A DNA stretch of 64,000 nt. It comes from Lentisphaerota bacterium. GTDB lineage: Bacteria; Verrucomicrobiota; Lentisphaeria; Victivallales; Victivallaceae. Each line of letters begins with the position of its first letter. The stretch's first letter is position 1. The translations under genes were made by a program, and so were the position numbers. Shown here in pieces: positions 17,290 through 47,362 of the stretch. The stretch covers positions 1-64,000 of the forward strand of contig SUWF01000016.1 in assembly GCA_015061575.1 (NCBI GenBank). Reading direction: 5' to 3'. Below the pieces are notes generated by a model. The model made no database searches. It saw only the letters and a program-made list of their open reading frames with translations, and was not told where the DNA came from.

Positions 17290-20200
17290 TTACTTAGCTT
17301 CCGGAGTATCGTTGAGCATGTAATCCGGTTTGGTGCCTTTGAAAACTTTGTATTTGATGAATTCACGCAGCCGCTGACATGCCGCATACAAAGCCGGTGT
17401 AAACACGATCCCCACCACCGTTGCCAGCAGCATACCGGAGAAGGTGGTTATACCGATAGCCTGACGGCTGGCCGCCCCGGCACCGCTGGCGATCACCAGC
17501 GGGAACACCCCGAAGAGGAAGCTCCACGCCGTCATCAGCACCGCACGGTAACGCAGGTCGCCGCCCCGCATGGCGGCTTCGGTGATCGAGAGGCCGCGTT
17601 CACGCTCCTGCTTGGAAAATTCCACCATCAAGATGGCGTTTTTGGCAGTCAAGCCGATCAACATAACCATCCCCAGCTGAGCATAAATACTCATGGTTTC
17701 GCCGGTCAGCCAAAGCCCGAGCAATGCCCCCAAACTGGCAAATGCCACAGACATCATCACCGGCACCGGAATCGTCCAGGATTCATACTGGGCCACCAGA
17801 AAGAGGTATGCAAATATGATCGCCAGCATCATGAGCTTGCCCAGCTGACCTTCGTTTTCCTTTTCCTGATAGCTCATGCCGGTCCATTCAATATGGTACT
17901 GCCGGGGCAGTTCAATCTTTTCGATGATCTGGATCAAATCCCCGGTGGAAGCTCCGGGCTTACCCTGAACGTTCATTTCTGCCGAGGTAAGCTTGTTGAA
18001 CCGCTGGATACGGCGCGGGCCGACCATGAAGCTGAGTTCACCGACCGAGCTCAACGGCACCATTTCGCCGTAGCTGTTGCGGATCTGGATGTTTTTAAGA
18101 TCATCGATCGTGGAACGGTTTTCGGCATTGCTCTGGATCTTGACATAGAAGCTGTTGCCCAGAATGTTGAAGTCGTTGATGTAGAAACTGGCCAGCTGGC
18201 TCTGCAAACTTGAATAAATATTGCTGGCAGTCAAACCGAGCGTTTCGGCCTTGTCGCGGTCAATATTCAAGTAAAGCTGCGGAGTGTTGGCATCGTAAGT
18301 GGTAATAGCATACAGCGTCTTGGGATCAGCTGAAATCTTGCCGGCAGTATCCATGGCCTGATTGAAAAGGTTCGTCGGCGTGATTTCCCCTTCGCCGGAG
18401 AGCATGAATGTAGCACCACCGGTGGCCCCCAGCCCCATGATGGCCGGCGGGGTAAAGCAGAGGATCTGGGCCGAAGCAATGGTACGGGCAACGCCCTGAA
18501 TTTTCATATTCAATGCTCCCAGCTGCTTATCCGGAGTGGTACGGTCTTTCCAGTGATCAAGTTTTACAATAGCGATACCGGCGTTTTCGGCCCGGCCGGA
18601 AAGAATACTGAAACCGGAACCGATCAGCACGCTCTGAACGCCATCAACTTTGAGTACCTTGTCGCGAAACTCAAACAACGCCTGTTCGGTACGGGCCAGC
18701 GTGGCCCCCGGCGGCAGGTCGATGTTGACCAGAATTGCACCTTTGTCTTCGGTCGGCAGGAACGAACTCAGGATCTGCTTATTCATAAACCAGATGCCGC
18801 CCAGCACAATACCGAAGATGATCAGCGTAAGCAGTGCCCGGCGTACCAGCAGTTTGACCCCAAACAAATACACTTTGCGGGAAGCGTCCAGCACAGCATT
18901 GAACGGGGCATAGATCCTGGCCGGTTTTTCTGCCGGAGGACGCAGCAGAAGTGCGCACAATGCCGGACTGAGCGTCATCGCCACAATAGTGGAGAAGCAC
19001 AGCGATATACACATGGTCACAGCAAACTGCATGTAAATAGTCCCCACCATCCCGCCGTAGAACGCCAGCGGCGCATAACACGCCACGGTCACCAGCGTAG
19101 TGGCAATAATTGCCCCGGTGATCTGCTGCATACTCTTGAGGGCAGCTTCTTTGGCGGAAAGTTTTTCACGCTGCATAAGGGCCTGACAGTTTTCCACCAC
19201 CACGATAGCGTCGTCACAGAGCGAACCTACTACCAGGATCAACCCGAACATGGTCAATACGTTGATACTGTAGCCCAAAGCCAGCATCACCGGAAAAGTT
19301 GCCATCAAAGCTACCGGGATCGCCAGTGACGGGATCAGCGTTGCCCGCCAATCCTGCAGAAAAATCCAGGTAATTACCACCACCAGCAACAGTGCAATCA
19401 CCAGAGTAGTGATGATTTCTTTCAAAGAAATAACAATAAATTCCGTGGGGTCATACGCTGTAGTGTAGCTTACACCTTGCGGAAAACGCTGGCTGAGCCG
19501 TTTGATTTCAGCTTTGACCTGTTCTACAGTTTTCAAAGCGTTGGCATCGCTGGAGCGGTAGATCATCATACCGACTGCTTCGCCATTGTTGAACCAGCCG
19601 TGTCCGGCGTATTCCTTGGCCCCCAGCTCCACCCGGGCTATGTCTTTGAGGCGGATCAGATTGCCGTTGCCGTCGTTGCGGACGATGATATTGCCGAATT
19701 CTTCGGCGTTTTTCAAACGGCCCTGTACGTTAAGTTTGTATTCGATGTAATCGCTGGAGTTTTCGGAACCGATAGTACCGGCGGCCGCCTGAATGTTTTG
19801 CGATTTGACCGCCGCAATGATTTCGTCAGTCGATACGCTCAAGCCGCCCATACGGATGGGATCCAGCCAGATACGCATACTGAATACCTGGGCGGACATG
19901 ACTTCCGCCGCCGCCACCCCGTCAATACGGGAAATCGGATCTTTAATGGTAGTGTTTACATAGTTGTTCAACTCAATAACCGACATATTGCTTTTGTCGG
20001 TCATAAATACAAACACCGCCAGCATGTCGCCGGTACGTTTGTCTACGTTTACGCCCACGCGTTTGACATCATCCGGCAGCTTGGGTTCGGCCCGTTTGAG
20101 GGCGTTCTGCACGTTGACCATGGCCATGTCGGAATCGGTTCCGCTTTTGAAGGTCACGGCGCAGCTGTAGTTGCCGAGGTTGTCGCAGGTACTGGAAAAA

Positions 20201-20433
20201 TAGAGCAGATCGTCCACCCCGTTGAGTTCATCTTCGATCGGAATGGCTACGGTATCGGCCACCACCCCCGCACTGGCACCGGCGTAGTTGGTCGTTACCG
20301 AAATCTGCGGCGGGGCGATTTCCGGATATTCGGCAATCGGCAGCTGGGTAACTGCCATGATCCCCATAAGCACAAATACAATACTAATGACCATCGCAAA
20401 GCGTGGCCGTTCAATAAATATCTTGGAAAACAT
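17290..20433 (-). CDS. RND multidrug efflux permease (HAE1/AcrB family)
   Basis: 1047 aa; MFSKIFIERPRFAMVISIVFVLMGIMAVTQLPIAEYPEIAPPQISVTTNYAGASAGVV, typical AcrB start, plus TM motifs. Confidence 0.96.
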   Translation of the reverse strand: MFSKIFIERPRFAMVISIVFVLMGIMAVTQLPIAEYPEIAPPQISVTTNYAGASAGVVADTVAIPIEDELNGVDDLLYFSSTCDNLGNYSCAVTFKSGTDSDMAMVNVQNALKRAEPKLPDDVKRVGVNVDKRTGDMLAVFVFMTDKSNMSVIELNNYVNTTIKDPISRIDGVAAAEVMSAQVFSMRIWLDPIRMGGLSVSTDEIIAAVKSQNIQAAAGTIGSENSSDYIEYKLNVQGRLKNAEEFGNIIVRNDGNGNLIRLKDIARVELGAKEYAGHGWFNNGEAVGMMIYRSSDANALKTVEQVKAEIKRLSQRFPQGVSYTTAYDPTEFIVISLKEIITTLVIALLLVVVITWIFLQDWRATLIPSLAIPVALMATFPVMLALGYSINVLTMFGLILVVGSLCDDAIVVVENCQALMQREKLSAKEAALKSMQQITGAIIATTLVTVACYAPLAFYGGMVGTIYMQFAVTMCISLCFSTIVAMTLSPALCALLLRPPAEKPARIYAPFNAVLDASRKVYLFGVKLLVRRALLTLIIFGIVLGGIWFMNKQILSSFLPTEDKGAILVNIDLPPGATLARTEQALFEFRDKVLKVDGVQSVLIGSGFSILSGRAENAGIAIVKLDHWKDRTTPDKQLGALNMKIQGVARTIASAQILCFTPPAIMGLGATGGATFMLSGEGEITPTNLFNQAMDTAGKISADPKTLYAITTYDANTPQLYLNIDRDKAETLGLTASNIYSSLQSQLASFYINDFNILGNSFYVKIQSNAENRSTIDDLKNIQIRNSYGEMVPLSSVGELSFMVGPRRIQRFNKLTSAEMNVQGKPGASTGDLIQIIEKIELPRQYHIEWTGMSYQEKENEGQLGKLMMLAIIFAYLFLVAQYESWTIPVPVMMSVAFASLGALLGLWLTGETMSIYAQLGMVMLIGLTAKNAILMVEFSKQERERGLSITEAAMRGGDLRYRAVLMTAWSFLFGVFPLVIASGAGAASRQAIGITTFSGMLLATVVGIVFTPALYAACQRLREFIKYKVFKGTKPDYMLNDTPEAK

Positions 20434-20454
20434 CAGAGCTGCTCCTCAATTAAC

Positions 20455-21537
20455 TTACTTGGCCAATTCCACCGTCGAGCCGGGGCGGGCCTTGTGAGTA
20501 CCGTCAACAATGATCGTTTCGCCAACTTTAAGACCTTTATCCACGATCACGAATTTGCCCCGTTCGCTGCCGAGTTTGACATCCCGGCGGCTGACCTTGT
20601 TGGCTTTATCCAACACATAAACGTAAGCATTTTTGCTGTCGTGCATCACGGCTGAGGGGGTGATGGCCGGGCAGTTGGCGGCAATCTTGCGTTCCAGCAT
20701 TACCGAAACGGTGGAGCCGGGGATGAGTTTGTATTGTTTGTTGGGAAATTCAGCGTAAATTTGAATGGTATCGGTACGGCGGTTAGCGGCGTTGTCCACA
20801 AATGCCACAGTGCCGATTTCTTCAAATTTACTGTCGTCGGCCAACTTCAAAGAAAGCCGGGCTTCTTTTTTCAAAGCATCCAAAGTGCCGAACATCTGCA
20901 GAAAGTCCCGGTTGCTCATGGCAAACTGCACCCGGATCGGCGTCACCTGATTGATGGTGGCCAGCAAGCCCGAGGTGGGAGTTATGTAATTACCTTCAGT
21001 GTAATTGGTTACCCCGATAACTCCGTCCATCGGAGCGGTGATTACGGTGTTGTCCAAGTCATCTTTGGCGGTGATCAATGCCGCTTCGGCAGCGAGCAAA
21101 CTGGATTTGTAGGCTTCCAGCGAACTCAAAGTATTTTCCAGCGAGTCCTTACTGGCGGCGTTCTGACCGTAAAGCGAGTGGGCGCGGTTGTAGCTGTTTT
21201 GGGCGTATTCCAAACGGGCTTTGCACTCAGCGATTTTAGCTTCGGCACTTTTAACCGCAGCATCATAGCGGATGCGGTCAAAGGTATAAAGCATCTGGCC
21301 TTTGCGTACATAGTCACCGTTTTTGAATCCGACTTTCAGCAGTTCGCCGGAAACCCGGGGCACCAGCTGGACCACGGCCGGAGCGGAAACCAATCCGGAG
21401 TAACGGCGCACTTCCACATTATCCTGAGCGACGACTTTCCCGGCTTTGACAACGGGAGCAGGCATCCCGCCGGGGGCGGCGTTGACTGCTCCGGCAATAA
21501 GCATACCGCAAGCAGCGGTGAACATGATTTTTTTCAT
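20455..21537 (-). CDS. RND efflux periplasmic adaptor subunit
   Basis: 360 aa with signal peptide; VQLVPRVSGELLKVGFKNGDYVRKGQMLYTFD and TAPMDGVIGVTNYTEGNYI. Confidence 0.94.
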   Translation of the reverse strand: MKKIMFTAACGMLIAGAVNAAPGGMPAPVVKAGKVVAQDNVEVRRYSGLVSAPAVVQLVPRVSGELLKVGFKNGDYVRKGQMLYTFDRIRYDAAVKSAEAKIAECKARLEYAQNSYNRAHSLYGQNAASKDSLENTLSSLEAYKSSLLAAEAALITAKDDLDNTVITAPMDGVIGVTNYTEGNYITPTSGLLATINQVTPIRVQFAMSNRDFLQMFGTLDALKKEARLSLKLADDSKFEEIGTVAFVDNAANRRTDTIQIYAEFPNKQYKLIPGSTVSVMLERKIAANCPAITPSAVMHDSKNAYVYVLDKANKVSRRDVKLGSERGKFVIVDKGLKVGETIIVDGTHKARPGSTVELAK

Positions 21538-21574
21538 AATCTTCTCCTCCTTATAAATATCTTTTATTTTGTCT

Positions 21575-22039
21575 TTATTTTGATTGTTGGGGCAAATTGC
21601 TGATTTGTTCCAGTAATCGCTCTAAAACTGATTGAAATACGGCAAATTCTTCAGCGGAAATTCCGCAGGATATAGCCTGCATGACGTTTTCGATTCTGCG
21701 GCCATGTTCTTCTTTGAGCGCCAAACCTGATTCTGTCGGCCGCAGCAATATAGCGCGCCGGTCAGTGGGGCTGGTGGTACGTTCCACAATATTTTCTTTG
21801 ACCAGAGTATCCACGGTTTGCGAGATCGCTCCCGGGGTCAACTTCAGTTCATCGGCGATTTCTTTGAGCATGACGCCTTGAGGGTGCCGGTCGTAAATCA
21901 CGCCGATGACCCGCAGCTGCGAGAGCGGCAAACGGTTGGGCAGGTCACAATCAGTGATCCCGGAACTGCTCAAACGGTCGGCCAGACGAAGCACATTGCG
22001 CCACACATTTTCGTGCGGTTGGGGGTCGGTAGTTTTCAC
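21575..22039 (-). CDS. MarR family transcriptional regulator
   Basis: Winged-helix LSQLRVIGVIYDRHPQGVMLKEIADELKLTPGAISQTVDTLVKENIVERTTSPTDRRAILLRPTESG. Confidence 0.93.
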   Translation of the reverse strand: MKTTDPQPHENVWRNVLRLADRLSSSGITDCDLPNRLPLSQLRVIGVIYDRHPQGVMLKEIADELKLTPGAISQTVDTLVKENIVERTTSPTDRRAILLRPTESGLALKEEHGRRIENVMQAISCGISAEEFAVFQSVLERLLEQISNLPQQSK

Positions 22040-22107: not shown

Positions 22108-22263
22108 TTTAAAATAATCCTTATTTGAAAAAATGCAAGTGGCTTACCGTTTATTTTGCTTTTTGATACTTGAAAAAGTTGCTTTTTAAGGATTCTGGTG
22201 TATTATTTACCAAATACGGATAAACACACGACACTTTTGTATTTTTAGTGGTTGGAGGAAAAT

Positions 22264-25200
22264 ATGCAGTTGGATTTCAGAATCGACTGGGGATATTTGT
22301 ATTTGTATTCGCGGCGTCATTATCACCCGTTTTTTGAATGGGATGGCCATTTGGAGTGCTGTAACGGAAAAATTGCAGAATTGCGCCAGCTTGAGTATCC
22401 GGTGATCTGGTTCGGTCCCGGCCATTGCGCCAGGGAAACTGTATTGCCCGATAACAGCTGGAAAAGCCGCACCCGCCGGGGCATGGCCGGAGTGCGGGTG
22501 ATTGCTGAAGTCAACGAAGATACTGTTTTTAAACTGGTTACCCGCAGCGGCAGTTTTGAATTTTCGGCGCAAAGCATCATTGAGGACGGCCGGATCGTTT
22601 TTCCGGTCGGTCCCAAATATCTGGGCTGCTCGGTGATCGTTACCCGCAGCGGGTATCTCTGGTTCCGCCCGGCTCCGGCGGCAGGGCAGACTGTGTTTGA
22701 AGCTGAAGATCTTACTCAGCTGCCGCTGCATGATTGGATGCGGATGCCGACGGCATGGCTGGCTCCGGGCGCTAAAGTCGATCTGCCGCTGGAAATTGCC
22801 CCGGATAAATTTGATTATAACGAAACGCTGCTGCATCTGGCGGCCATGGCAGCTCCGCCATCGGGGTATACGCCGGGTGATGAGCAGGTTTTTCATGATG
22901 ACTTTACTATAAATATTTATGTTGATGGAGTTTTTTGCAAAAAGGTCACCCACTTTTTCCGGGAGCACGATACTTTTATGCAGATGCTCGAAGATGTGTG
23001 GGTTCGCTTTGCTGCGGCGCCGGGCAAGCATGTGATCACGCTTGAAAATACCCACAAAGATGGTTATCTGTTGATCAGCAGAGCAGTTTTCAGCCGTTGC
23101 GGTTATAACCACTTGCAGTTGAGTTTGCCGCAATGGGCATTGGTCGGCGAAAAGATCATCGGCCGGATCTTTGCGGTAAAAAGCGATCAAGTTGCCGTGC
23201 AGACGCCCAGTGGAGAAATTGCGCTGGAAGTTGCTGCCGGCTGGAATGAGTTTGAGTTCAAGCTGGAGCAGCCGGGACGCAATGTGGAAATTTTCACCAG
23301 CAGTTCCCGGAGCGTTATTGGCGAAGTTTACGCGCTGGGGAGCGAAAATATTCCGGTGACGGTCGGTTACGATATGACCATTGTGCCGCATGACGATAAC
23401 GGTTTTATGGATTGGCTGCTGGATTATACCTGGCGTACTCAGCTGGCTAATCTGGTGGTTTTCCGCTCCTTTTATTATGCAGTCGGCTGCTATGGTGCCG
23501 GTAACCGGGCTCCCCGGAAAATCGACGGAGCTTTGCTGAGCCGTTGGGCGGAGTTTTGCCGCAAACATGGCATTTGGGTGGAAGCGGCTACGGACTTTGA
23601 CGGCGGCGAACTGATCAAAGGTGCCGGAGAATACATCCATTACGTCGGGCGTCACGAATACCCCGGAGCGGTGTACGCTTTTGACCCGCAGGAACCCTAT
23701 ATATCGCAGGATATGCAGGAAGCCAGCCAAAAGTATATGGAGTATTTGAAGATCGAAATCGACCGGGCGCACAACGCCGGCGGCCGCTGCGCCTTTGGGG
23801 ATGCTTCCGGCGGACACCGTTACTGCTATCTGGCCGGAGCGGATTTTATCCGCAGCGAAACCATGGTGCCGCACACCATGCACCTTTTGAGTCAGGCCCG
23901 GCCGGCGGCAGAGGCTCTGAGTTCCGGCGAATGGGGAGTGCATATTGCCATCCATCACCCCAAACAACCCTATTTTGAAACTCATTTGGGCGAGTATTAT
24001 TTGAGTATCTTCCAACCGTGGATCATGGGCGCAAATATGATCTACGAAGAAGACAGTCTGTTTTTGCTTTTCAAAGAAGAACGCCAGAGCTGGGACGATG
24101 CTTTGACCAAGGGCAAGCGCGATATGACAAGGGAGTTTTACAAATTTGTCAAAACCCATCCCCGCAGCGGCAAGTGCGTGCGCAATATTGCCTTTCTGGA
24201 AGGGCGTTACGCCGCTCCGTTCAACGGCTTTATCTGCGATTGCGAACAAACGCCGGATTATTCAGTCTGGGGCCGTTTCGGCAATCCGGCTCCGGAATGG
24301 GGCCACAAACAGCCGGAAAAATGCCGCCAGCTGCTGGACGTACTCATGCCGGGGGCCAATACGCAGCCGCTGCGGCAGCAATATGACAAACGCCGCTTTT
24401 TCTTTTCGGGCTCGCCCTACGGTGACTTTGATGAAGTACCGGTTGAAGCGGCTGCTGAATACTTTGACCAGTATAAACTCCTGCTCAATCTGGGCTGGCA
24501 CACCTGTGAAGATGCTGACTGGGAAAAACTTGCCGGTTTTGTCCAAAAAGGCGGTATCCTGCTGACCGGCATCCCGCAGTTCAGTACGCATGTCAAACGG
24601 GATTTCCTCAAAGATTTCAACGATTTGGCTTTGTGGAACGGCGGCGATCTGAGTGCGGCTTGCGGTATCAAAGTCAAAGGGCGTGGCGCAAAATATTCCG
24701 GCCAGTGGAACTGCGCATGGCGGGAAGATTTTCCGGAAGTGGAACTCTCAGCCGCCCCAAATGATGATGTCAACGAAGATGATTTGGGCTTTGCGGCAGA
24801 TATTGATTTAGCTGGAGCGGAAGTGGTGATTTATGATGCTTCGACCGCTGCGCCGCTTTTGGTGCGTTACCGTTTGGGCGCAGGCTGGGTCTACACGCTT
24901 ACTTTGTGGGCATATCCCGGGCACGAAAAATTCCAGAAACTCAGCGCAGCAGTGATTGCGGCGTTAGCCGCCAGCGTGCGTTCGGAGCATTATGTGGAAG
25001 ATCCTTCCCGGGAAGTCTTTTGGACGTATTGGCGCAATACCGATGATCAGGCCGATGCGCTGCTGATGCTGCTCAACACCGATTGGTCGGTCAAAGGCAA
25101 CTGCAAGACCGTTATGGTGCATACTCCCGGATGGAGTTTTGAATTGGCAGTACCGGAACGGGATATGCAGTTTGTCAGGATCTATGGAAACAAAGCGTTG

Positions 25201-25356
25201 ATTTCCGGTACCGATCTTTTTGTGCAGAGCAAAGCAGATAAGTTGATAGCTTACGGGCAGGGGCAGGTGGCCTGTCAGGTTATTGATGCTGATGGCAACG
25301 CCGAAGATCGGGTGCTTGATTTTGCCGATAATACAGAAATGGAAATAACAATATAA
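22264..25356 (+). CDS. Uncharacterised large protein, putative glycoside-hydrolase-like (barrel plus amidotransferase-like domain)
   Basis: 1030 aa from ATG 22264 with RBS ggagga; segments suggest beta-sandwich, TIM-barrel-like and Rossmann-like domains (DWEKLAGFVQKGGILLTGIPQF). No signal peptide. Confidence 0.45.
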   Translation: MQLDFRIDWGYLYLYSRRHYHPFFEWDGHLECCNGKIAELRQLEYPVIWFGPGHCARETVLPDNSWKSRTRRGMAGVRVIAEVNEDTVFKLVTRSGSFEFSAQSIIEDGRIVFPVGPKYLGCSVIVTRSGYLWFRPAPAAGQTVFEAEDLTQLPLHDWMRMPTAWLAPGAKVDLPLEIAPDKFDYNETLLHLAAMAAPPSGYTPGDEQVFHDDFTINIYVDGVFCKKVTHFFREHDTFMQMLEDVWVRFAAAPGKHVITLENTHKDGYLLISRAVFSRCGYNHLQLSLPQWALVGEKIIGRIFAVKSDQVAVQTPSGEIALEVAAGWNEFEFKLEQPGRNVEIFTSSSRSVIGEVYALGSENIPVTVGYDMTIVPHDDNGFMDWLLDYTWRTQLANLVVFRSFYYAVGCYGAGNRAPRKIDGALLSRWAEFCRKHGIWVEAATDFDGGELIKGAGEYIHYVGRHEYPGAVYAFDPQEPYISQDMQEASQKYMEYLKIEIDRAHNAGGRCAFGDASGGHRYCYLAGADFIRSETMVPHTMHLLSQARPAAEALSSGEWGVHIAIHHPKQPYFETHLGEYYLSIFQPWIMGANMIYEEDSLFLLFKEERQSWDDALTKGKRDMTREFYKFVKTHPRSGKCVRNIAFLEGRYAAPFNGFICDCEQTPDYSVWGRFGNPAPEWGHKQPEKCRQLLDVLMPGANTQPLRQQYDKRRFFFSGSPYGDFDEVPVEAAAEYFDQYKLLLNLGWHTCEDADWEKLAGFVQKGGILLTGIPQFSTHVKRDFLKDFNDLALWNGGDLSAACGIKVKGRGAKYSGQWNCAWREDFPEVELSAAPNDDVNEDDLGFAADIDLAGAEVVIYDASTAAPLLVRYRLGAGWVYTLTLWAYPGHEKFQKLSAAVIAALAASVRSEHYVEDPSREVFWTYWRNTDDQADALLMLLNTDWSVKGNCKTVMVHTPGWSFELAVPERDMQFVRIYGNKALISGTDLFVQSKADKLIAYGQGQVACQVIDADGNAEDRVLDFADNTEMEITI

Positions 25357-25375
25357 AACCGCAGGAGCAAAGATT

Positions 25376-27364
25376 ATGCAAGGTTATTGGGTACAGCTTT
25401 TTACCCCCCGGGTGAAAAGTGATATCGTGGATTTTTTGCCGGATAATGTGAAGTTTTTAAGTCAAGCCGCTCCGGAAGAGCTTGAGCAAGTGCTCGCTGC
25501 AGCCCGGAAAGGCGAAGCTAAAGTGCTGCTGGAGTGCCCCGCAGAGTATCCGGGATTGGATATTGGCGATGAACTTTACGCCGACAGTTTCAAGGCCCGT
25601 TCAGTCGTGGCTGATGACTGGTTTGGAGAAGCTTTGCCGCTTTGCCGTATTCTTACGCAGCACAACTTTGTTTTGCGCAAAGTGACTGCTCCGGTAAAGG
25701 CGCATTTGGTGGCAGCCCGGGTGGCGGGGTATCGGGATGCGTGTTTCGGATTGGCAGATGCCGAGCAAATGCCGGTGCTTTTTGAAGCTCCGGATTGCTC
25801 GAATATTCTTATAGCGGTTACGCCGCTGGCCAGTTTTATCGGCAGCCGGTTTGCCCCGGCAGTGGATTGGCAGGTGGTGATCGGCAAACTGCTGGCGTTT
25901 TTGAGCGGCAGTGCTGAGATAATTCCGATCAAATACACCTTGCCGGTGCATCCGGCTTATCAGGCGCAGGAGACTTTGCCGGAAAATTTTGAAGATAACG
26001 CTTTCAATCGCAATGCTGAATGGTTCTATCGCGAAATGATCTACAATCATCACGGTTCGCTGGGCGTTTTTGAAGGCTGCACATCTATAATTGATGTGAC
26101 CGGCCGGCAGTGGATCATGCCGGCGCTGCGGGGCGACTGTCTGGGCGAATGTTCGGCAGTCGGGGCATTGGATTACATTATCAATCGTGAACGGGCCGGG
26201 CGGGAAATGGCCGAAGGTTTGATCAAAACCATGCTCGATACGCCCAAAGTGCGGGATTGCTGCCCGGCCAGCCAAACTTACGGTTCGCTCTTTTTTGACG
26301 ACAGCAACCGCTCGATCTACGGCGATGATAACTCCCGGGCGGCACTGGGGGCGATATTATCTGAAGATTTGCTCGAAGATCCGCAGCATGCCAAAAAAAT
26401 CCTGCAGTTGGGATATTCGCTGTTGCGTACTACCGGCCCCAACGGATTGCGCACGCCCAGCTTGCTGCAGCCGGAAAGTTTTCAGGGCAAAACCTGGCAA
26501 TATTACCGGGAAAATAATTACGAAAAATGCCATCCGCATTATCAGGCGTGGCATTGGGCTTTGAACTGCCAGTTATATAAGCTTACCGGCGACCGGGATT
26601 TTCTGGATTCCGCCATCGCTGCCATGCAGGAAGCCAACAAATGCTTCCCGGATTTTTACTGGCAGAACGGAGCAACCGGCGATTGGGCCAGAATCCTGCT
26701 GCCGTTTGCCATGCTGGTGGAAGTTGATGATACTCCGGAACATCGGGCGTGGCTGGACAAGGTGGCCAATTACTTTATCGATAAACTCAATGAATATCAT
26801 ACTGCGCCTGAAGTTATGGGCAAATTGGAACTCGGGCATTATCCGGCGCCTTCCTGCAATGCTGATCACGGCCGTGGCGAAGCTGCGCTGGTACAGTTCA
26901 ACGGCGATCCGGCCTGCGATTTGCTCTACTCGGTCAATTACGCTTTCCCGGGCCTGCACGAAGCGTATATGGCAACCGGCAATCCCCGCTACAAAGCAGC
27001 GGTGGACGGCATGGCGGAATTTTTCTGCCGGATCCAGGCTGTTTCCAGCGAGCAGAAGTATCTGGATGGAGCATGGCTGCGGGGATTTGACTACGATCTG
27101 TGGGAATTTTTCGGCAGTGCTTCCGACTCCGGCTGGGGCCCATGGTGTGTGGAAACCGGCTGGACAAACTCTTGGATCGCCGGTACGTTGGGACTGCGCA
27201 AGCTCAATCGCCCGTTGTTGAGCAGTAAAAATGCCAATGTGTATAAAGAGCTGGTTCCGGAAGTCAAAGCAATGATGTTTGCACCGCTGATGCCATCAAC
27301 AACGAGCCGGGGTACCCAAACGATCATTAATACGTCATTGACCGGCGGCTTTGCCGAAGGTTGA
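25376..27364 (+). CDS. Uncharacterised protein with alpha/alpha-barrel (six-hairpin glycosidase-like) features
   Basis: 662 aa; helical repeats with YQAWHWALNCQLYKLTGDRDFLDSAIAAM, YMATGNPRYKAAVDGMAEF. Lies 19 bp downstream of the previous gene. Confidence 0.45.
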   Translation: MQGYWVQLFTPRVKSDIVDFLPDNVKFLSQAAPEELEQVLAAARKGEAKVLLECPAEYPGLDIGDELYADSFKARSVVADDWFGEALPLCRILTQHNFVLRKVTAPVKAHLVAARVAGYRDACFGLADAEQMPVLFEAPDCSNILIAVTPLASFIGSRFAPAVDWQVVIGKLLAFLSGSAEIIPIKYTLPVHPAYQAQETLPENFEDNAFNRNAEWFYREMIYNHHGSLGVFEGCTSIIDVTGRQWIMPALRGDCLGECSAVGALDYIINRERAGREMAEGLIKTMLDTPKVRDCCPASQTYGSLFFDDSNRSIYGDDNSRAALGAILSEDLLEDPQHAKKILQLGYSLLRTTGPNGLRTPSLLQPESFQGKTWQYYRENNYEKCHPHYQAWHWALNCQLYKLTGDRDFLDSAIAAMQEANKCFPDFYWQNGATGDWARILLPFAMLVEVDDTPEHRAWLDKVANYFIDKLNEYHTAPEVMGKLELGHYPAPSCNADHGRGEAALVQFNGDPACDLLYSVNYAFPGLHEAYMATGNPRYKAAVDGMAEFFCRIQAVSSEQKYLDGAWLRGFDYDLWEFFGSASDSGWGPWCVETGWTNSWIAGTLGLRKLNRPLLSSKNANVYKELVPEVKAMMFAPLMPSTTSRGTQTIINTSLTGGFAEG

Positions 27365-40202: not shown

Positions 40203-40525
40203 TATTCTAACCCCATTTTACAGCCGGTATACCCGGTAAGTTTCAATCAAACACAAAAATCCCGCCAGAAGCCCCTGCTTCTGTGGGTTCTATTACAGCT
40301 TACGCCAATTTGATTTGTCTTACAATAACACGCCTTTGTTTATTTTGCAAATATTGTGCTTTTTTTTTTAAACAATATATTGTATTAACTGAAAAAGTGT
40401 GAAAAAAAGCAAAAAAAAGTTGATAAGTACCATTTTAAAGCTTGCAAAAAACATTAATATGGAGTATAGTGCTTGCGAATATATATGGAGAAATAAATTA
40501 TCGAAGCAGGAAAGGGCTGTTTTTT

Positions 40526-43500
40526 ATGTCGAAATACAATAAGAATCTGAAAAACAATTACTACAATAGCGGTTGGAGTTGGTTGACCAACTACGGTACC
40601 AATATTGTTTTGCTGGGGAACACATACAGCAGTGATACCGGCGGTTATGTCCGGAATGGGCAACCTTACAGCAGCGGCAGCTATCACCCTGATAATTCCA
40701 CTGATTACGCTGTAACGATGTCCAGCGGTCAAATGCTGACCATCGGCGGTAACTACAGCAGCCCCAATATTCAATGGGTGGGCAGCTGGGTGCAAGGCCC
40801 GGCCAGTGCAGTGATCTGGAGCGGTGATGGTTTGCTGAATTTTACGGCGCATACCGGCGGGGATATTCTGGGTACTGCTGAAGCGGATGCCAATTCGCAG
40901 GTCAGTGATGTGGGTATCCGGATCAACGTCAAAAACAGTATGCCCAATGCTTACGACTTTAATGGTACGAATAAAGCTACTCCGGCGCAGAATATCAGCG
41001 CCTATGGCTTTAATGCCAGCGGTACTTTGCGGCTGGTAACTGATATGGCGGCCTCAATCAATGCGGAAAGCGGAACCAATTCGGCTAACGCCATGCGTGG
41101 ATACTACACAGTTTCCGGCACAACGACAACTCTGCATAATCTTTCCAGTAATAATGTGGTGGAAAGTTCTGCACTCAAGGCGGCCAGTATTGTTTTTGAT
41201 AACCATTTTACCGGCAATATTACTGTAAAAAGTGAACTGGATGCCATGGGATATGGCAGTCCGGATGCCAGCAGTAATACCGTGACGGCAGCCGGGGTGA
41301 ATGCTTCCGGAAATATCAGTTTGGAAAATGGTTACTGGGCCGGCTCGATCGATGCCCGCAGCGAAGGAAACCTTATTTATGGTGACTTCAACTTTGTGCT
41401 TGACTCTTCTAACGGACGGGAAAACAGCGCAACGGTCAACGGTAACAAAATCAGTGCGTTGGGGATCACCGGTGATACTGTTACGATCAAGGATTTTAAC
41501 GGTGAGATTTTCACGTCTGCCCGGGATAATCACTTTGTAGCAGCGGCTGTTAGCAAGGAAAATCAGACTTGCAGTGTTACCAGCAATGTAATTACTTCAG
41601 TAGGTATCAAGGCTGCCACTTTGAATGTTACCGGGGATTTCAGCGGCAGCATCCAAGCTGAAAACAGCAATATATCTCAAAGCTATACCGGCGGTAAGCT
41701 GACTGCGTCCGGCAATGCCGCAACTGCTTATGGTATTGAGGCAACCACCATCAGTGTCAACGGCAGTTTGCGTGGCGATATCGAAGTGGTTACTAATAAC
41801 ATAAGATTGCTGGCCAGCGACAGCAATACTGTTACTATTGACGCTGCAGGTATCAAAGCCACTACGATTACGGTCGATGGTTATATTGCAAGCGATATAT
41901 CCATGAGCTGTATCGGTTATATCGATGGTATTTCAGCAGGCAATATCACCGCTCAGGCTTTTACCGGACGCATTGATATTGAAAAGAGTACCGGTACTTC
42001 GGATGGTATCTATGTTACAAGTGGTATTACTAATACCAATGACGGCGTTTTTGATATGGCCGGTTACATTTCTGTTTCCAACGGCGGTATCTGGGGCTTC
42101 AGCAAGGCAGTGAATCTGCGGGTTTCCGGCGAAATTTATGCCAATAAGTTTGCGGTCGTTGCCGGTGATATTATCGGCAACTCAATCAGATTTACCGGGC
42201 AGAATGACTTTATGGAAGTTGCCGCCGGGGCGGTGATCGTAGGCGATATCGACTTGACGGATATGGAAAATACCATGTATGTGGACAGCAATGCCCGCAT
42301 TGAAGGTATTGTCAGTTCCTCCGGCGGTAAGCTCAATTTGACCTTTATGCTTAATGATAAAGCTATGGATGGGGTTACTGCCGCCAACAATAATTCTGCT
42401 ATTGAAGCATCTGACGCCACTGGTTCGGCGCTTTCCAGTACTACATCCATTACCATCAATTTGAACGATGTGGTGTTGGATAACAACCAGCCCAAGACCT
42501 ACTATCTGGTCAACGACAACAGTTCGGACTGGACCAACCGGCAGATCGCCTTTGTTTATCAGAATCAGCTGGTTTACGCCAAGGTCGGCGATACGGTAAC
42601 GGGCGAAAACGGTTCGTTTGTTGTCCGCAGCGAATATACTCACGACAAAGGTTTCTTTGTGGTGGTCGAATCCATTGTGGAAAATACGGATTGCGTAGTG
42701 CCCGGCAATTTGGCGCACGAAGTTTCCGCTGCCGATAACTCCATGACCATCAGCTGGTCTGCTGTGGAAGTGACGGATCCGGAATTTACCCCGGTCAAGT
42801 ATGAGTTGGAATACCGGATCGTTGATACCAACGGTACCGTGGGCAAGAGTATTACGGTAATGCTCGATGCCGACAAGACCAGCTTTGAACTGACCGATAT
42901 TCTGGATGGGCAGAAAGTGGAATACCGGGTGCGTACCCATTACAACGAATACCGCAGCTTCAGCGATTGGTCCAATATGCAGAATGCGGTCATGGGGTCG
43001 TATGATACTCCGGTAGCCAGCGATAAAGCCAAGTTGGAATACGCCAACCCGGAAAATGCGGCCACGACTTCCAGTTCGGTGATCGAACTCTCCTGGAGCG
43101 GTTTTGAAACTCCCGATGGGCTGGATCATTACGAAATCCGCTACTATGTTCAGGATAAACCCTTCGCCAGTGAAGCCGAACTGCAGGCCAAATGGGATTC
43201 GCTGCAGTATGGCAAAGGCGAACGCTACTATCATAAATACACCACTGCCAGAGAGATCATCGTTTCCGGTCTGAATGACAGCGATTACGTCTATTGGCAG
43301 GTGCGGGCGATCGATGTCAACGGCAACGCTACCGACTGGGTGGGCGGCGATGTGTTCCAGGTGACTTTGGGCGACATCAAAGACCCGGTCATGACTGCGT
43401 TCAACGTCAACAGAACCTGGGATACGACCAAAAATCCGGATGAAGCCGGATTTATTGTGGTCAATGCCGACTGGAGTGCGTATGACCCCGCCGGCGGTTC

Positions 43501-46500
43501 CGGGGTGCGTTTCTACTATGTAAGCTACCGGATGCAGCTGGTTGATGAAAATGGTCAGCCTCAGGTCGACGCCGAAGGCAACGCCGTTTATGGCGAATGG
43601 AGTACCGAAAAGAAGTATTCCGCCGATACCACCAGCGATGTATACAAACTGGTCAATGGCAACTATCAGTGGAAGATTTACAGCACCGACCACTCCGGCC
43701 GGACAAGTGAAGTTATGTACGCTCAAACTGATACCGACTGGGTTGCCCCCAGTGTGGAATCCGCTTACAGCGTCAAGTACGATGTCAAACTCAAGCCCGA
43801 AGAAGCCGGTTTTATGACCGCTACTGTTTCCTGGAGCGGCAGCGATAATGAAAATGGCGTGGGTATTGAGTATTATCAGGTTCGCTATCGCAAAAAAGAA
43901 CTCAACAGCGAGGGCGAATACGAGTATGGCGAATGGGTCGCCACTCAGTTTGATAACACTGTGTTGAAGCATGATTTTGCGCTACCCAACGGCGAATACG
44001 ATTGGGAAATCGTCGCTATCGACTTTGCCGGCAACACCAGCACTACGCATGTAATGGAAGTCGAAGGCGACGTCACCGGTCCGACTTTCAATAACACCGG
44101 TTACAGCTTCACGCTGTTGTGGGATGATGTGGATCTGCAGCTGGTGGTCAACGGCAGCTGGCACGATGCGTTCGATACTCAAACCGGTCTGGCCGGATAC
44201 CGCCTCTCTTACCGTAATCTGGAGTGGGACGGCGATCAGTGGGTGGTGCTCAACTTTGATGTCAATACCACGCAAACCACGCTCCGGATCGACAACGGCG
44301 AATATGATTGGAAACTCGAAGCCGTTGACTTTGCCGGTAACGTTACTGCGCTGGATAAGCACAGCAACTGGGTCGGCGACGTGGAAGGCCCGGTATTCAC
44401 CAATCCCGATTACCTCTTCAGCAACGTCCGCACCGATGCCAACGGCAAAAAGGTCGTGGACTTTGAATGGAGTGTGGCAAATGATCCGCGCACGCAGATC
44501 TGCACCGGATTTTCGCACTACGAACTGGTTATCTACGAAGATCTTAATAAAGACGGCGAGTTCAACGCCGATGTGGATAAACTGGTGCTGCGCCAGAAAG
44601 TTTCCGGCAAGTATCACACTTCGGTGACGGTTGACAGTATCGATTTCAACAAGAACTTCAACTACTCCTGGTGTGTGGAAGCCTACGATATCGGCGGCAA
44701 CAAATCCACTTGCAGCAACAGCAATTTCACTATCGACTTTACGGCGCCGGTCGGCAGCTTTGAAGACGATACCAACTACAATATTTCGGTGGTGTGGGAT
44801 ACCCGCCTGGAACTGAACGAAGATACCAATCAGTACGAACAGGTCGATTTCATCAGCGATATTACGCTGCGTTTGGACTTTGATGCGGCGCACGAAGATG
44901 ATCTCAGCGGTGTGCGTTATCAGATCCAAATTTGCGAAAATGATTCTTTCAGCGGCAAGACTCTGAAAAATTACTACACATCCACCGATGCAACTGAGCT
45001 GATCTTTGATGCCGGTAACGGATCAAATAACGGTCACGAAAATATGGGCGATCTGCGCGGTTATGAACACATCTACTGGCGGGTGCGGGCCATCGACGGC
45101 AGCGGCAACGCTTCGGATGTCTGGTTCCTGGGCAATGACGGCAACCCGATCAAGCTGCGGGACTACAACCGTTTGGACGAAGATCTTTCGCCCAGCCGTC
45201 TCTACGATAACACGGCTCCGAGCTTTAATATGAACAGCGAAGTGCTTTTCCAGTGGGATATGGAAGGCGGACTGTATGTGTCGTGGGATGGAGCGCATGA
45301 TGCGTTCGGTATTGATCACTATGTGCTGAAGCTGACCCGGGAAACGGCTTATCCGAGCGATCTGCCGCTGATCGAGTGGGAAACGATGGATCCGTCTTAC
45401 AGCAATATTGCCAAGCTGGTGAAGTCTTCGCCCAAAACCTACACCATCACCACCGACAGCGGTGATAACTGGTTTGCCGTACAGAACCTGCCGGATGGCG
45501 TTTACAAGCTTACAACACGGGCCTATGACGCTGCCGGTAATGTCAGCGAAGCTGTCAATCTGGAAAAATCCATCACCATCGATACGCACGGCCCGACGCT
45601 GGATACGGCTTCGGTCAAGAGCGAGGTGGCGGCCAATGATGTGCTGTTCACATGGGATGCCGCTCTGGATTTGGTTGGCGTATCCCGCTATGAACTGACT
45701 TACAAGAAGTTGAATGATCAGACGCTGGCTTACGAAAAAGTTCAGACCATCGTTATCGATGGCAAGGAAACCGAGTTCTGGCTGCGCAATCTGGAAGCCG
45801 GTGAATACAGCTTTACACTGCAGGCGTTTGATACGATTTCGCAGAGCAGCAATATGTTCGGGGTTTCCTCCAACGGTTCGGATGTCACTGCTTCGAGCTT
45901 GTTTACCATCATTGGCAGCGATGCGGGCAACAACTTTGCCAGTGCCGTAGCTATGGTTAACAACAAGGTCTACAGCGATGCGGTAAGCTATACTGATACG
46001 GCGGATTGCTATTCGCTGGTCATGGCGGGCGCCGGAGCGGCGGTCTTTACTGTAAGCGATGTCAAAACGCTGGGCAAGTCCAGCGGCGGCGTCAAGCTGA
46101 CGTTCTACAACAGCAGTTATAAAAAGCTCAAGACGGTAACGCTGAGCAAAGGTACCAAGAGCTACAGCTATAACTATGCTGCCGGCAAGTACTTTGTGGT
46201 GGTTTCTCCGGCCAAAGGCAACAGCAGTGTAACTTATTCGATTTCGGTCGATACCAGCGAATATCCGGCGGCTACGCTCAAGGATGATGCTGCGTACTTC
46301 AAGGCCAATACGCTGGTCAAGACCCCGATGGTCAATAACGCTGCCAATACCGGCGCAACGCTCAGTTTGTCCGGCTGGGTCGGTTTTGGTGATGGCGAAG
46401 ATTACTATGCGGTTACTGCCGACCGTTCGAGCAGCAGCTCAATCAAGATCACCGGTATTACCAGCAAGACCAAAGTCACGCTGTATGATGCCAATAAGAA

Positions 46501-47362
46501 AAAGCTCAAGAGTGTGACTCTCACTGCCGATGGTACGCTTTACAGCGGTTATCTGGGCGATGCTTACTACATTGGTATTGCTTCCGGCGACAAGGGCAAG
46601 GGCAAGTATAACAGCAATTACGCCGTAAGCATCGACTCCACTTATGTGCGGGCAGATGCGGTCAATACCACGGCGGCGCTGGCATCCAGCAACCAGCTCT
46701 CCGGCTGGGTCGGGATCGGTGATGTGTCGGATCTGTACAAGTTCACCAACGCCAGCGGCGAAAAACTTTCGTTCAATGTCAGCGGCGTGACCGGCAAGCT
46801 CAAGTTGACGGTCTACGACAACAACATGAAGAAAGTCAAGAGTGTAACGGTCAAGAAAGATGGCACTTATTTGGACAATCTGCTGGTCGATGGCAACTTC
46901 TATGTGGAAGTAGCTTCGTCGGATAAGGGCAAAAAACAGCATGGCAACTACGATATCACCATCAATGCGGATATCTTCCCGGTGGAAGCCAAAGCCAACA
47001 ACTCCATGGCACAGGCCGGTAATCTGGCTGATGCGGCCACTGGAGGCGTGGTCAACGCTTGGGATGGAGCCGCGGCGCTGGTCGATGAATGGGTCGGCTT
47101 TGGCGATAAGAGCGACTACTTTGCCTTTGAAATGAGTCAGGCCGGTCAGGTCGACTTTAATCTGGTGCTGGATGATGCCTCGCTCAAGGTCGGCAAGGCG
47201 GTCAAGGTTACGCTGTACAACGCTGACGGCAAAAAACTCAAGCTGGATGCTGATTTCATCAGCAAGGATGAGTTGGCCATCGGCAAGTATTTTGTGGCGG
47301 TCGAAAGTGCCAGCGAAAAGAAATACAGCACTGGTTACAAACTGGATATAACCATCTGCTAA
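40526..47362 (+). CDS. Giant modular secreted/surface protein, presumed substrate of the adjacent type I secretion system
   Basis: ~2278 aa from ATG 40526: N-terminal solenoid-like repeats, about nine FN3-like modules with YxWxxxAxDxxGN signatures, four C-terminal PPC-like modules. No Sec signal peptide; divergent from T1SS genes. Confidence 0.8.
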   Translation: MSKYNKNLKNNYYNSGWSWLTNYGTNIVLLGNTYSSDTGGYVRNGQPYSSGSYHPDNSTDYAVTMSSGQMLTIGGNYSSPNIQWVGSWVQGPASAVIWSGDGLLNFTAHTGGDILGTAEADANSQVSDVGIRINVKNSMPNAYDFNGTNKATPAQNISAYGFNASGTLRLVTDMAASINAESGTNSANAMRGYYTVSGTTTTLHNLSSNNVVESSALKAASIVFDNHFTGNITVKSELDAMGYGSPDASSNTVTAAGVNASGNISLENGYWAGSIDARSEGNLIYGDFNFVLDSSNGRENSATVNGNKISALGITGDTVTIKDFNGEIFTSARDNHFVAAAVSKENQTCSVTSNVITSVGIKAATLNVTGDFSGSIQAENSNISQSYTGGKLTASGNAATAYGIEATTISVNGSLRGDIEVVTNNIRLLASDSNTVTIDAAGIKATTITVDGYIASDISMSCIGYIDGISAGNITAQAFTGRIDIEKSTGTSDGIYVTSGITNTNDGVFDMAGYISVSNGGIWGFSKAVNLRVSGEIYANKFAVVAGDIIGNSIRFTGQNDFMEVAAGAVIVGDIDLTDMENTMYVDSNARIEGIVSSSGGKLNLTFMLNDKAMDGVTAANNNSAIEASDATGSALSSTTSITINLNDVVLDNNQPKTYYLVNDNSSDWTNRQIAFVYQNQLVYAKVGDTVTGENGSFVVRSEYTHDKGFFVVVESIVENTDCVVPGNLAHEVSAADNSMTISWSAVEVTDPEFTPVKYELEYRIVDTNGTVGKSITVMLDADKTSFELTDILDGQKVEYRVRTHYNEYRSFSDWSNMQNAVMGSYDTPVASDKAKLEYANPENAATTSSSVIELSWSGFETPDGLDHYEIRYYVQDKPFASEAELQAKWDSLQYGKGERYYHKYTTAREIIVSGLNDSDYVYWQVRAIDVNGNATDWVGGDVFQVTLGDIKDPVMTAFNVNRTWDTTKNPDEAGFIVVNADWSAYDPAGGSGVRFYYVSYRMQLVDENGQPQVDAEGNAVYGEWSTEKKYSADTTSDVYKLVNGNYQWKIYSTDHSGRTSEVMYAQTDTDWVAPSVESAYSVKYDVKLKPEEAGFMTATVSWSGSDNENGVGIEYYQVRYRKKELNSEGEYEYGEWVATQFDNTVLKHDFALPNGEYDWEIVAIDFAGNTSTTHVMEVEGDVTGPTFNNTGYSFTLLWDDVDLQLVVNGSWHDAFDTQTGLAGYRLSYRNLEWDGDQWVVLNFDVNTTQTTLRIDNGEYDWKLEAVDFAGNVTALDKHSNWVGDVEGPVFTNPDYLFSNVRTDANGKKVVDFEWSVANDPRTQICTGFSHYELVIYEDLNKDGEFNADVDKLVLRQKVSGKYHTSVTVDSIDFNKNFNYSWCVEAYDIGGNKSTCSNSNFTIDFTAPVGSFEDDTNYNISVVWDTRLELNEDTNQYEQVDFISDITLRLDFDAAHEDDLSGVRYQIQICENDSFSGKTLKNYYTSTDATELIFDAGNGSNNGHENMGDLRGYEHIYWRVRAIDGSGNASDVWFLGNDGNPIKLRDYNRLDEDLSPSRLYDNTAPSFNMNSEVLFQWDMEGGLYVSWDGAHDAFGIDHYVLKLTRETAYPSDLPLIEWETMDPSYSNIAKLVKSSPKTYTITTDSGDNWFAVQNLPDGVYKLTTRAYDAAGNVSEAVNLEKSITIDTHGPTLDTASVKSEVAANDVLFTWDAALDLVGVSRYELTYKKLNDQTLAYEKVQTIVIDGKETEFWLRNLEAGEYSFTLQAFDTISQSSNMFGVSSNGSDVTASSLFTIIGSDAGNNFASAVAMVNNKVYSDAVSYTDTADCYSLVMAGAGAAVFTVSDVKTLGKSSGGVKLTFYNSSYKKLKTVTLSKGTKSYSYNYAAGKYFVVVSPAKGNSSVTYSISVDTSEYPAATLKDDAAYFKANTLVKTPMVNNAANTGATLSLSGWVGFGDGEDYYAVTADRSSSSSIKITGITSKTKVTLYDANKKKLKSVTLTADGTLYSGYLGDAYYIGIASGDKGKGKYNSNYAVSIDSTYVRADAVNTTAALASSNQLSGWVGIGDVSDLYKFTNASGEKLSFNVSGVTGKLKLTVYDNNMKKVKSVTVKKDGTYLDNLLVDGNFYVEVASSDKGKKQHGNYDITINADIFPVEAKANNSMAQAGNLADAATGGVVNAWDGAAALVDEWVGFGDKSDYFAFEMSQAGQVDFNLVLDDASLKVGKAVKVTLYNADGKKLKLDADFISKDELAIGKYFVAVESASEKKYSTGYKLDITIC
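40980..41940 (+). repeat. N-terminal solenoid-like amino-acid repeats (about 7)
   Basis: Repeated pattern N-x-(V/I)-T-x-x-G-(I/V)-x-A-x-x-(I/L)-x-V-x-x-x-x-x-G-x-I, e.g. NVITSVGIKAATLNVTGDFSGSI, NAATAYGIEATTISVNGSLRGDI, NTVTIDAAGIKATTITVDGYIASDI. Confidence 0.65.
42690..45930 (+). repeat. FN3/Ig-like module array (about 9)
   Basis: Recurring YEIRYY/YVSYR/YQVRYR/YRLSYR...YWQVRAIDVNGN/YDWEIVAIDFAGN/YDWKLEAVDFAGN/YWRVRAIDGSGN/YKLTTRAYDAAGN. Confidence 0.75.
45930..47359 (+). repeat. Four C-terminal PPC-like beta-sandwich modules
   Basis: Repeats of (S)GWVGFGDxxDYYxF...V.LTxYxxxxKKLKxVT...GxYxVxVxSxxKxxxxxYxIxI. Confidence 0.7.

Follow-up and report, generated by a model that had tools for sequence, protein, structure and literature searches.

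The window analysed here, the whole stretch of 64,000 nucleotides at positions 1 to 64,000 of contig SUWF01000016.1 (assembly GCA_015061575.1, a Lentisphaerota bacterium of the family Victivallaceae), carries on its forward strand two adjacent large open reading frames (ORFs), those of protein 1 (P0001; 22264–25356 including the stop codon; 1030 amino acids (aa)) and protein 2 (P0002; 25376–27364 including the stop codon; 662 aa), separated by an intergenic gap of 19 bp. This layout, first described in a sequence-only reading of the locus, was confirmed. Each gene is preceded by a ribosome-binding site that can be read from the sequence, GGAGGA (22254–22259) located 4 nt upstream of the ATG of protein 1 and AGGAG (25363–25367) located 8 nt upstream of that of protein 2, and both start codons are further backed by N-termini conserved among orthologues. 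Ratios of non-synonymous to synonymous substitution rates (dN/dS), each determined against three orthologous pairs, were 0.10–0.13 for protein 1 and 0.08–0.11 for protein 2, indicating strong purifying selection on both and hence functional genes rather than chance ORFs. A promoter and terminator scan gave no clear excess over shuffled sequences. Among the segments quoted in the earlier reading, GDASGGHRYCYLAGADFIRSET and HYQAWHWAL are present as given, and 'WMGAN' really reads WIMGAN. As argued below, the likeliest reading of the two products is that a cytoplasmic glycosidase and an auxiliary enzyme take part in the breakdown of amino-sugar glycans.

That neither protein can be placed in a named family holds for Pfam and NCBIfam, where no match to either was found at E values up to 1, and for the PDB sequences at E values up to 10; no paper describing either family was found in the literature, and no relatives were found on viral contigs. 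On sequence grounds, the two proteins are members of two so far unnamed families, both widespread and conserved. In a survey of 149 related genomes, full-length relatives of protein 1 occurred in 31 and those of protein 2 in 23, both families extending to other families of the phylum, while the closest public records are metagenome-assembled genomes of Lentisphaeria, some of them from sheep colon. The protein 1 family spans Lentisphaeria and related lineages, with a distant relative in Phocaeicola massiliensis (profile E 1e-34). Protein 2 homologues are found in Verrucomicrobiota, Bacteroidota and Bacillota, including Bacteroides finegoldii (WP_055278289.1; 30% identity over 88%, E 8e-76) and Mesobacillus foraminis (E 2e-35). 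The genome under study has a single protein 2 and a second copy of protein 1, 60% identical and located on another contig. The carbohydrate-enzyme-like character attributed to both proteins is supported, and so is their newness, taken here as absence from Pfam, NCBIfam and PDB sequences; as to the suggestion that these are new families of glycoside hydrolases, this activity is likely for protein 1 and one option only for protein 2.

Protein 1 begins with a beta-rich, sugar-binding-like region of predicted fold (residues 1–361; 22264–23346), without Pfam match and beta-rich in a low-confidence model. A catalytic (beta/alpha)8-type barrel is predicted to follow (residues ~362–700; 23347–24363), and its proposal in the earlier reading is supported by the superfamily alignment and its pattern of conserved glutamates. 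Across the 45 aligned sequences, 20 of which come from distant relatives and the other 25 from the family itself, E465 (23656–23658), a candidate acid/base placed by prediction at the end of beta4, and E596 (24049–24051), a candidate nucleophile likewise predicted at the end of beta7, are invariant and also conserved in the Phocaeicola relative, and a further barrel glutamate, E532 (23857–23859), is kept in 44. The amidotransferase-like domain noticed earlier is real and corresponds to a GH42-type (class I amidotransferase-like) trimerisation domain, GH42M (residues ~712–890; 24397–24933). It was assigned at family level, PF08532 being found in 18 of the 25 family members (best E 2.6e-4) and 15 of 22 wider-family members (best E 4.1e-10) and not reached by the window protein alone; moreover, the wider family profile matched GH42 structures over this region with an E value of 7.6e-6. 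Some of the GH42-structure profile matches reach into the beta-rich C-terminal domain (residues 891–1030; 24934–25353). All these features lie on the forward strand.

GH42 beta-galactosidases (for example PDB 8ibs, 5dfa and 5xb7) have the layout predicted for protein 1, with a class I amidotransferase-like trimerisation domain after the barrel. In contrast to these enzymes, protein 1 has a long extra N-terminal beta-rich region, and the Glyco_hydro_42 catalytic-domain model found no match in P0001 (E≤1), in the 25 family members or in the 22 wider members. There is precedent, in Verrucomicrobia among others, for non-GH42 barrels bearing a GH42M domain: Op5Man5, a verrucomicrobial clan GH-A enzyme (GH5 in CAZy), has a GH42-type trimer and its catalytic Glu156 and Glu281 on beta4 and beta7, and Bs164 (GH164) shares the GH42 layout (PMC8233224). 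The two glutamates are 125 residues apart in Op5Man5 and 131 (E465 to E596) in protein 1, which thus shows two invariant glutamates with a spacing fitting clan GH-A, although no PDB chain matches its barrel region in sequence beyond noise. Because of the invariant E465 and E596, their spacing and the GH42M-type domain, protein 1 most likely represents a new family of retaining clan GH-A glycosidases, separate from GH42. We know of no activity reported for any of its relatives. Proteins with a GH42 trimerisation domain are very numerous in 22 Lentisphaeria genomes, with 2 to 36 in each, mostly in ORFs of ~600–1900 aa.

Protein 2, likewise encoded on the forward strand, would combine an N-terminal domain (residues 1–200; 25376–25975), marked in alignment A1 by conserved ARVAGYR and FAPxxDW motifs and possibly amidotransferase-like, with a predicted alpha/alpha-toroid catalytic domain (residues 201–640; 25976–27295). 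An equivalence of the former with the GH42M-like domain of protein 1 was rejected, no profile match being found. The latter is homologous to proteins of 400–600 aa from the same phylum (profile E 1e-38) and weakly resembles the GH88 and AGE (N-acetylglucosamine (GlcNAc) 2-epimerase) families. E233 (26072–26074), R252, D254 (26135–26137), D515 (26918–26920), Y518 and W596 are invariant in 34/34 sequences from three phyla. What had been called an alpha/alpha-barrel-like protein is most likely, judging from profile likeness, an alpha/alpha toroid that is a member of neither GH88 nor AGE. In one relative's contig (L074:10550–10945), an ORF of 132 aa located two genes downstream of a protein 2 homologue duplicates the C-terminal end of that homologue.

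The genomic surroundings of the homologues repeatedly involve amino-sugar genes. Of 49 loci with protein 2 relatives of about 400 aa, 13 have an AGE epimerase gene no more than 1.5 kb away, where 0.12 would be expected, a count that rests on homologue match lists and includes related, non-independent genomes; recounted with only eight loci, the excess is still very large (P 4e-13). The linked relatives span 8 genera, often together with a LacI regulator, and the best PDB match of the linked epimerase is an N-acetyl-D-glucosamine 2-epimerase (E 5e-110). Many Lentisphaeria genomes (L190–L201) contain an operon-like group of the 400-aa toroid protein, GlcNAc 2-epimerase and LacI regulator, likely an amino-sugar operon with an enzyme of an unnamed toroid family. 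Full-length protein 2 homologues adjoin the AGE gene in one genome (G083) and lie near it in another (G101). In B. finegoldii, the homologue again adjoins the AGE gene, in a locus encoding a ROK regulator, DUF4434, an MFS porter, AGE epimerase, the homologue itself, SusC, SusD, DUF5018, DUF4855, GH89, GH3 and SGNH. A B. finegoldii record labelled as a plasmid (L171, NZ_OY725913.1) contains thrS, infC, rpmI and rplT and therefore probably represents a piece of chromosome that was circularised or mislabelled. In Mesobacillus, NanE and a ROK-family protein come before the homologue and an FAD oxidoreductase after it, and oxidoreductases of the same Pfam family stand beside protein 2 homologues in G101 and G010. 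Further neighbours of such homologues are GH20, GH84, DUF4838 and GH38.

GH20 and GH123 genes are among the neighbours of protein 1 homologues, and in P. massiliensis the distant relative (L173:10843–16185) lies ~16 bp upstream of a GH89 (NAGLU) gene in a SusC locus with GH95. This relative, from an unannotated record, begins with a signal-peptide-like N-terminus. Bacteroidota convert N-acetylmannosamine (ManNAc) to GlcNAc via an AGE-family enzyme, and the AGE and ROK genes of the B. finegoldii locus, like NanE and ROK in Mesobacillus, recall the sialic-acid/ManNAc route of Bacteroides with its NanE-II and RokA (PMC10017367), from which both loci differ in that no sialidase or NanA-type lyase is annotated beside the protein 2 homologue. 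Taken together, the neighbourhoods of protein 2 point to N-acetylhexosamine catabolism.

It is therefore in the cytoplasmic processing of N-acetylhexosamine glycans that the pair probably takes part. The overall explanation that fits best, to which we give about even credence, is that a protein 1 glycosidase and a protein 2 toroid enzyme serve in the same kind of N-acetylhexosamine glycan pathway. Protein 1 would act in the cytoplasm as a retaining exo-glycosidase whose barrel, of clan GH-A type, is accompanied by a GH42-type trimerisation domain; with E465 as acid/base and E596 as nucleophile, it would attack imported oligosaccharides with N-acetylhexosamine in them. Protein 2 would be an alpha/alpha-toroid enzyme, with E233, D254 and D515 as catalytic candidates, whose substrate is an (oligo)saccharide with GlcNAc or ManNAc and whose step adjoins 2-epimerisation by GlcNAc/ManNAc 2-epimerase. 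The two genes would have become neighbours in this genus and are probably co-transcribed. The action on an imported sugar proposed in the sequence-only reading fits the absence of a signal peptide from both window proteins, which was borne out by inspection of their sequences.

Several observations weigh against this explanation. The AGE family also includes cellobiose epimerases, so that the epimerase linkage leaves amino-sugar specificity unproven. Homologues of protein 1 are often flanked by unrelated housekeeping genes. In the genome under study (94% complete), no GH89 gene was found, and this enzyme was rejected as a pathway partner there; the only AGE gene of this genome is on a different contig from the pair, which is flanked by an efflux operon and housekeeping genes and not by a sugar locus. 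For these reasons, N-acetylhexosamine glycans are no more than candidate substrates in this bacterium. The two genes are adjacent only in G000, G001, G003 and G004, four of the five genomes of a single genus (g1). Finally, AlphaFold2 returned low-confidence models, beta-rich for protein 1 (pLDDT 34) and helical for protein 2 (pLDDT 39), from alignments of 3 and 5 close orthologues, respectively. Since both models are poor, the barrel and toroid folds are held as predictions; in a Foldseek search, the low-confidence protein 2 model listed PL27 (best E 0.059), GH76, GH127 and UGL, none of them significant. A sialic-acid locus around the AGE gene of this genome was also considered and rejected: the gene tested resembles a tRNA-dihydrouridine synthase, and a 1126-aa neighbour has no PDB match.

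The restriction of the pair to one genus bears directly on the earlier proposal of a two-gene catabolic unit, which is poorly supported. The fifth genome of the genus (G002) has protein 2 without protein 1, protein 2 orthologues at 68–78% identity (G002, G037, G062 and G126) lack an adjacent protein 1, and, among the 31 genomes that encode protein 1, 22 lack a full-length protein 2. Outside the genus, the two families occur together in 5 genomes when 3.4 were expected, a difference that is not significant (p = 0.23). Because adjacency is found in one genus only and co-occurrence beyond it lacks significance, the pair is a local arrangement and not a widely conserved operon. It is a substantial possibility, if somewhat on the doubtful side, that two unrelated glycan enzymes merely happened to become adjacent in the ancestor of the genus and are transcribed together without sharing a substrate. 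Besides these counts, the phylogeny of the protein 2 genes fits such a chance neighbourhood: the paired ones do not stand apart as one clade but are mixed with unpaired ones from other genera, as expected after transfer or loss, whereas the paired protein 1 genes form one clade (100/100). Nevertheless, gene order and a gap of 19–39 bp have been kept in the four paired genomes despite synonymous divergence (dS) of 1.3–2.0. In addition, among genomes without the pair, a gene with a GH42M domain lies at most two genes from a protein 2 homologue in G037 and G062 (counted as one lineage), G007 and G026, three independent places in all against 0.37 expected over 23 loci (p = 0.005), with the match in G026 just below the Pfam cut-off. 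Because carbohydrate genes cluster in any case, these examples do no more than suggest that a protein 2-type toroid repeatedly works next to glycosidases with GH42 architecture from different subfamilies.

Regarding the reaction of protein 2, alpha/alpha toroids include phosphorylases and epimerases. The tight linkage of the protein 2 superfamily to AGE, along with the NanE gene and ROK protein in Mesobacillus, would also be compatible with a phosphorylase, epimerase or isomerase that acts jointly with AGE epimerase, either on a disaccharide or directly on ManNAc/GlcNAc, rather than with a hydrolase. We consider this unlikely, as no homology between protein 2 and AGE was detectable beyond the toroid level: PF07221 matched neither protein 2 nor its family members, and hhalign gave probabilities of only 42% over 56 columns and 11% over 123 columns. 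A diverged AGE epimerase was accordingly rejected, there being no profile-level homology over the full domain. Furthermore, the homologues carry an extra N-terminal domain, and that of B. finegoldii starts with a lipoprotein-type signal, unlike the window proteins, and looks like an exported lipoprotein, unlike a cytoplasmic phosphorylase.

Improbable, in turn, is an unsaturated-glycuronidase-like (GH88/GH105-type) protein 2 that would remove the non-reducing-end uronyl residue of uronic-acid glycans. Protein 2 likely has the alpha/alpha-toroid architecture in common with GH88 unsaturated glucuronyl hydrolases (PF07470), the alignments of the two catalytic domains matching with P 2.8e-4 over 185 columns; the GH88 model was matched by 4 of 25 family members, with a best E of 0.035 that is below the family cut-off, and by a relative in G320:C8 (E 3e-5 over 68 positions), whereas P0002 itself gave zero GH88 or GH105 matches in Pfam. 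However, AGE epimerases reach the same score level and score higher still against GH88, so this likeness is best taken as the generic similarity found between unrelated toroid families, and the sole candidate polysaccharide lyase gene next to the homologues tested was one of heparinase II/III-like type (G002). That protein 1 is now non-catalytic, or a binding or scaffold protein with a GH42-like layout, is highly improbable: part of its wider superfamily lacks the long N-terminus, but the invariance of E465 and E596 across very divergent members (~19–27% identity) is not expected of a non-enzyme.

Returning to a glycosidase and a toroid enzyme acting on N-acetylhexosamine glycans, a bolder version, which we regard as fairly unlikely, would have protein 2 found a toroid class of three phyla for an undescribed amino-sugar step coupled to GlcNAc/ManNAc 2-epimerase, for example the cleavage of a ManNAc-containing disaccharide, and protein 1 found a clan GH-A family supplying its substrate. 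In gut Lentisphaeria, carbohydrate enzymes without a name are present in large sets, and for two such families there are now proposals for the catalytic residues and the architecture as well as a genomic context. Given the epimerase linkage in many genomes and the SusCD locus of a human-gut Bacteroides, the amino-sugar step could be tested in organisms that are less difficult to work with than uncultured Lentisphaeria.

As for the remainder of the window, the efflux operon beside the pair (17290–22039) is divergent, begins 224 bp upstream and encodes, as named from sequence, MarR, a membrane fusion protein and an RND efflux protein; large opposite-strand ORFs are arranged likewise beside the pair in three related loci (L063, L064 and L067). 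Further downstream, an open frame of 2306 aa extends along the forward strand (40442–47362).

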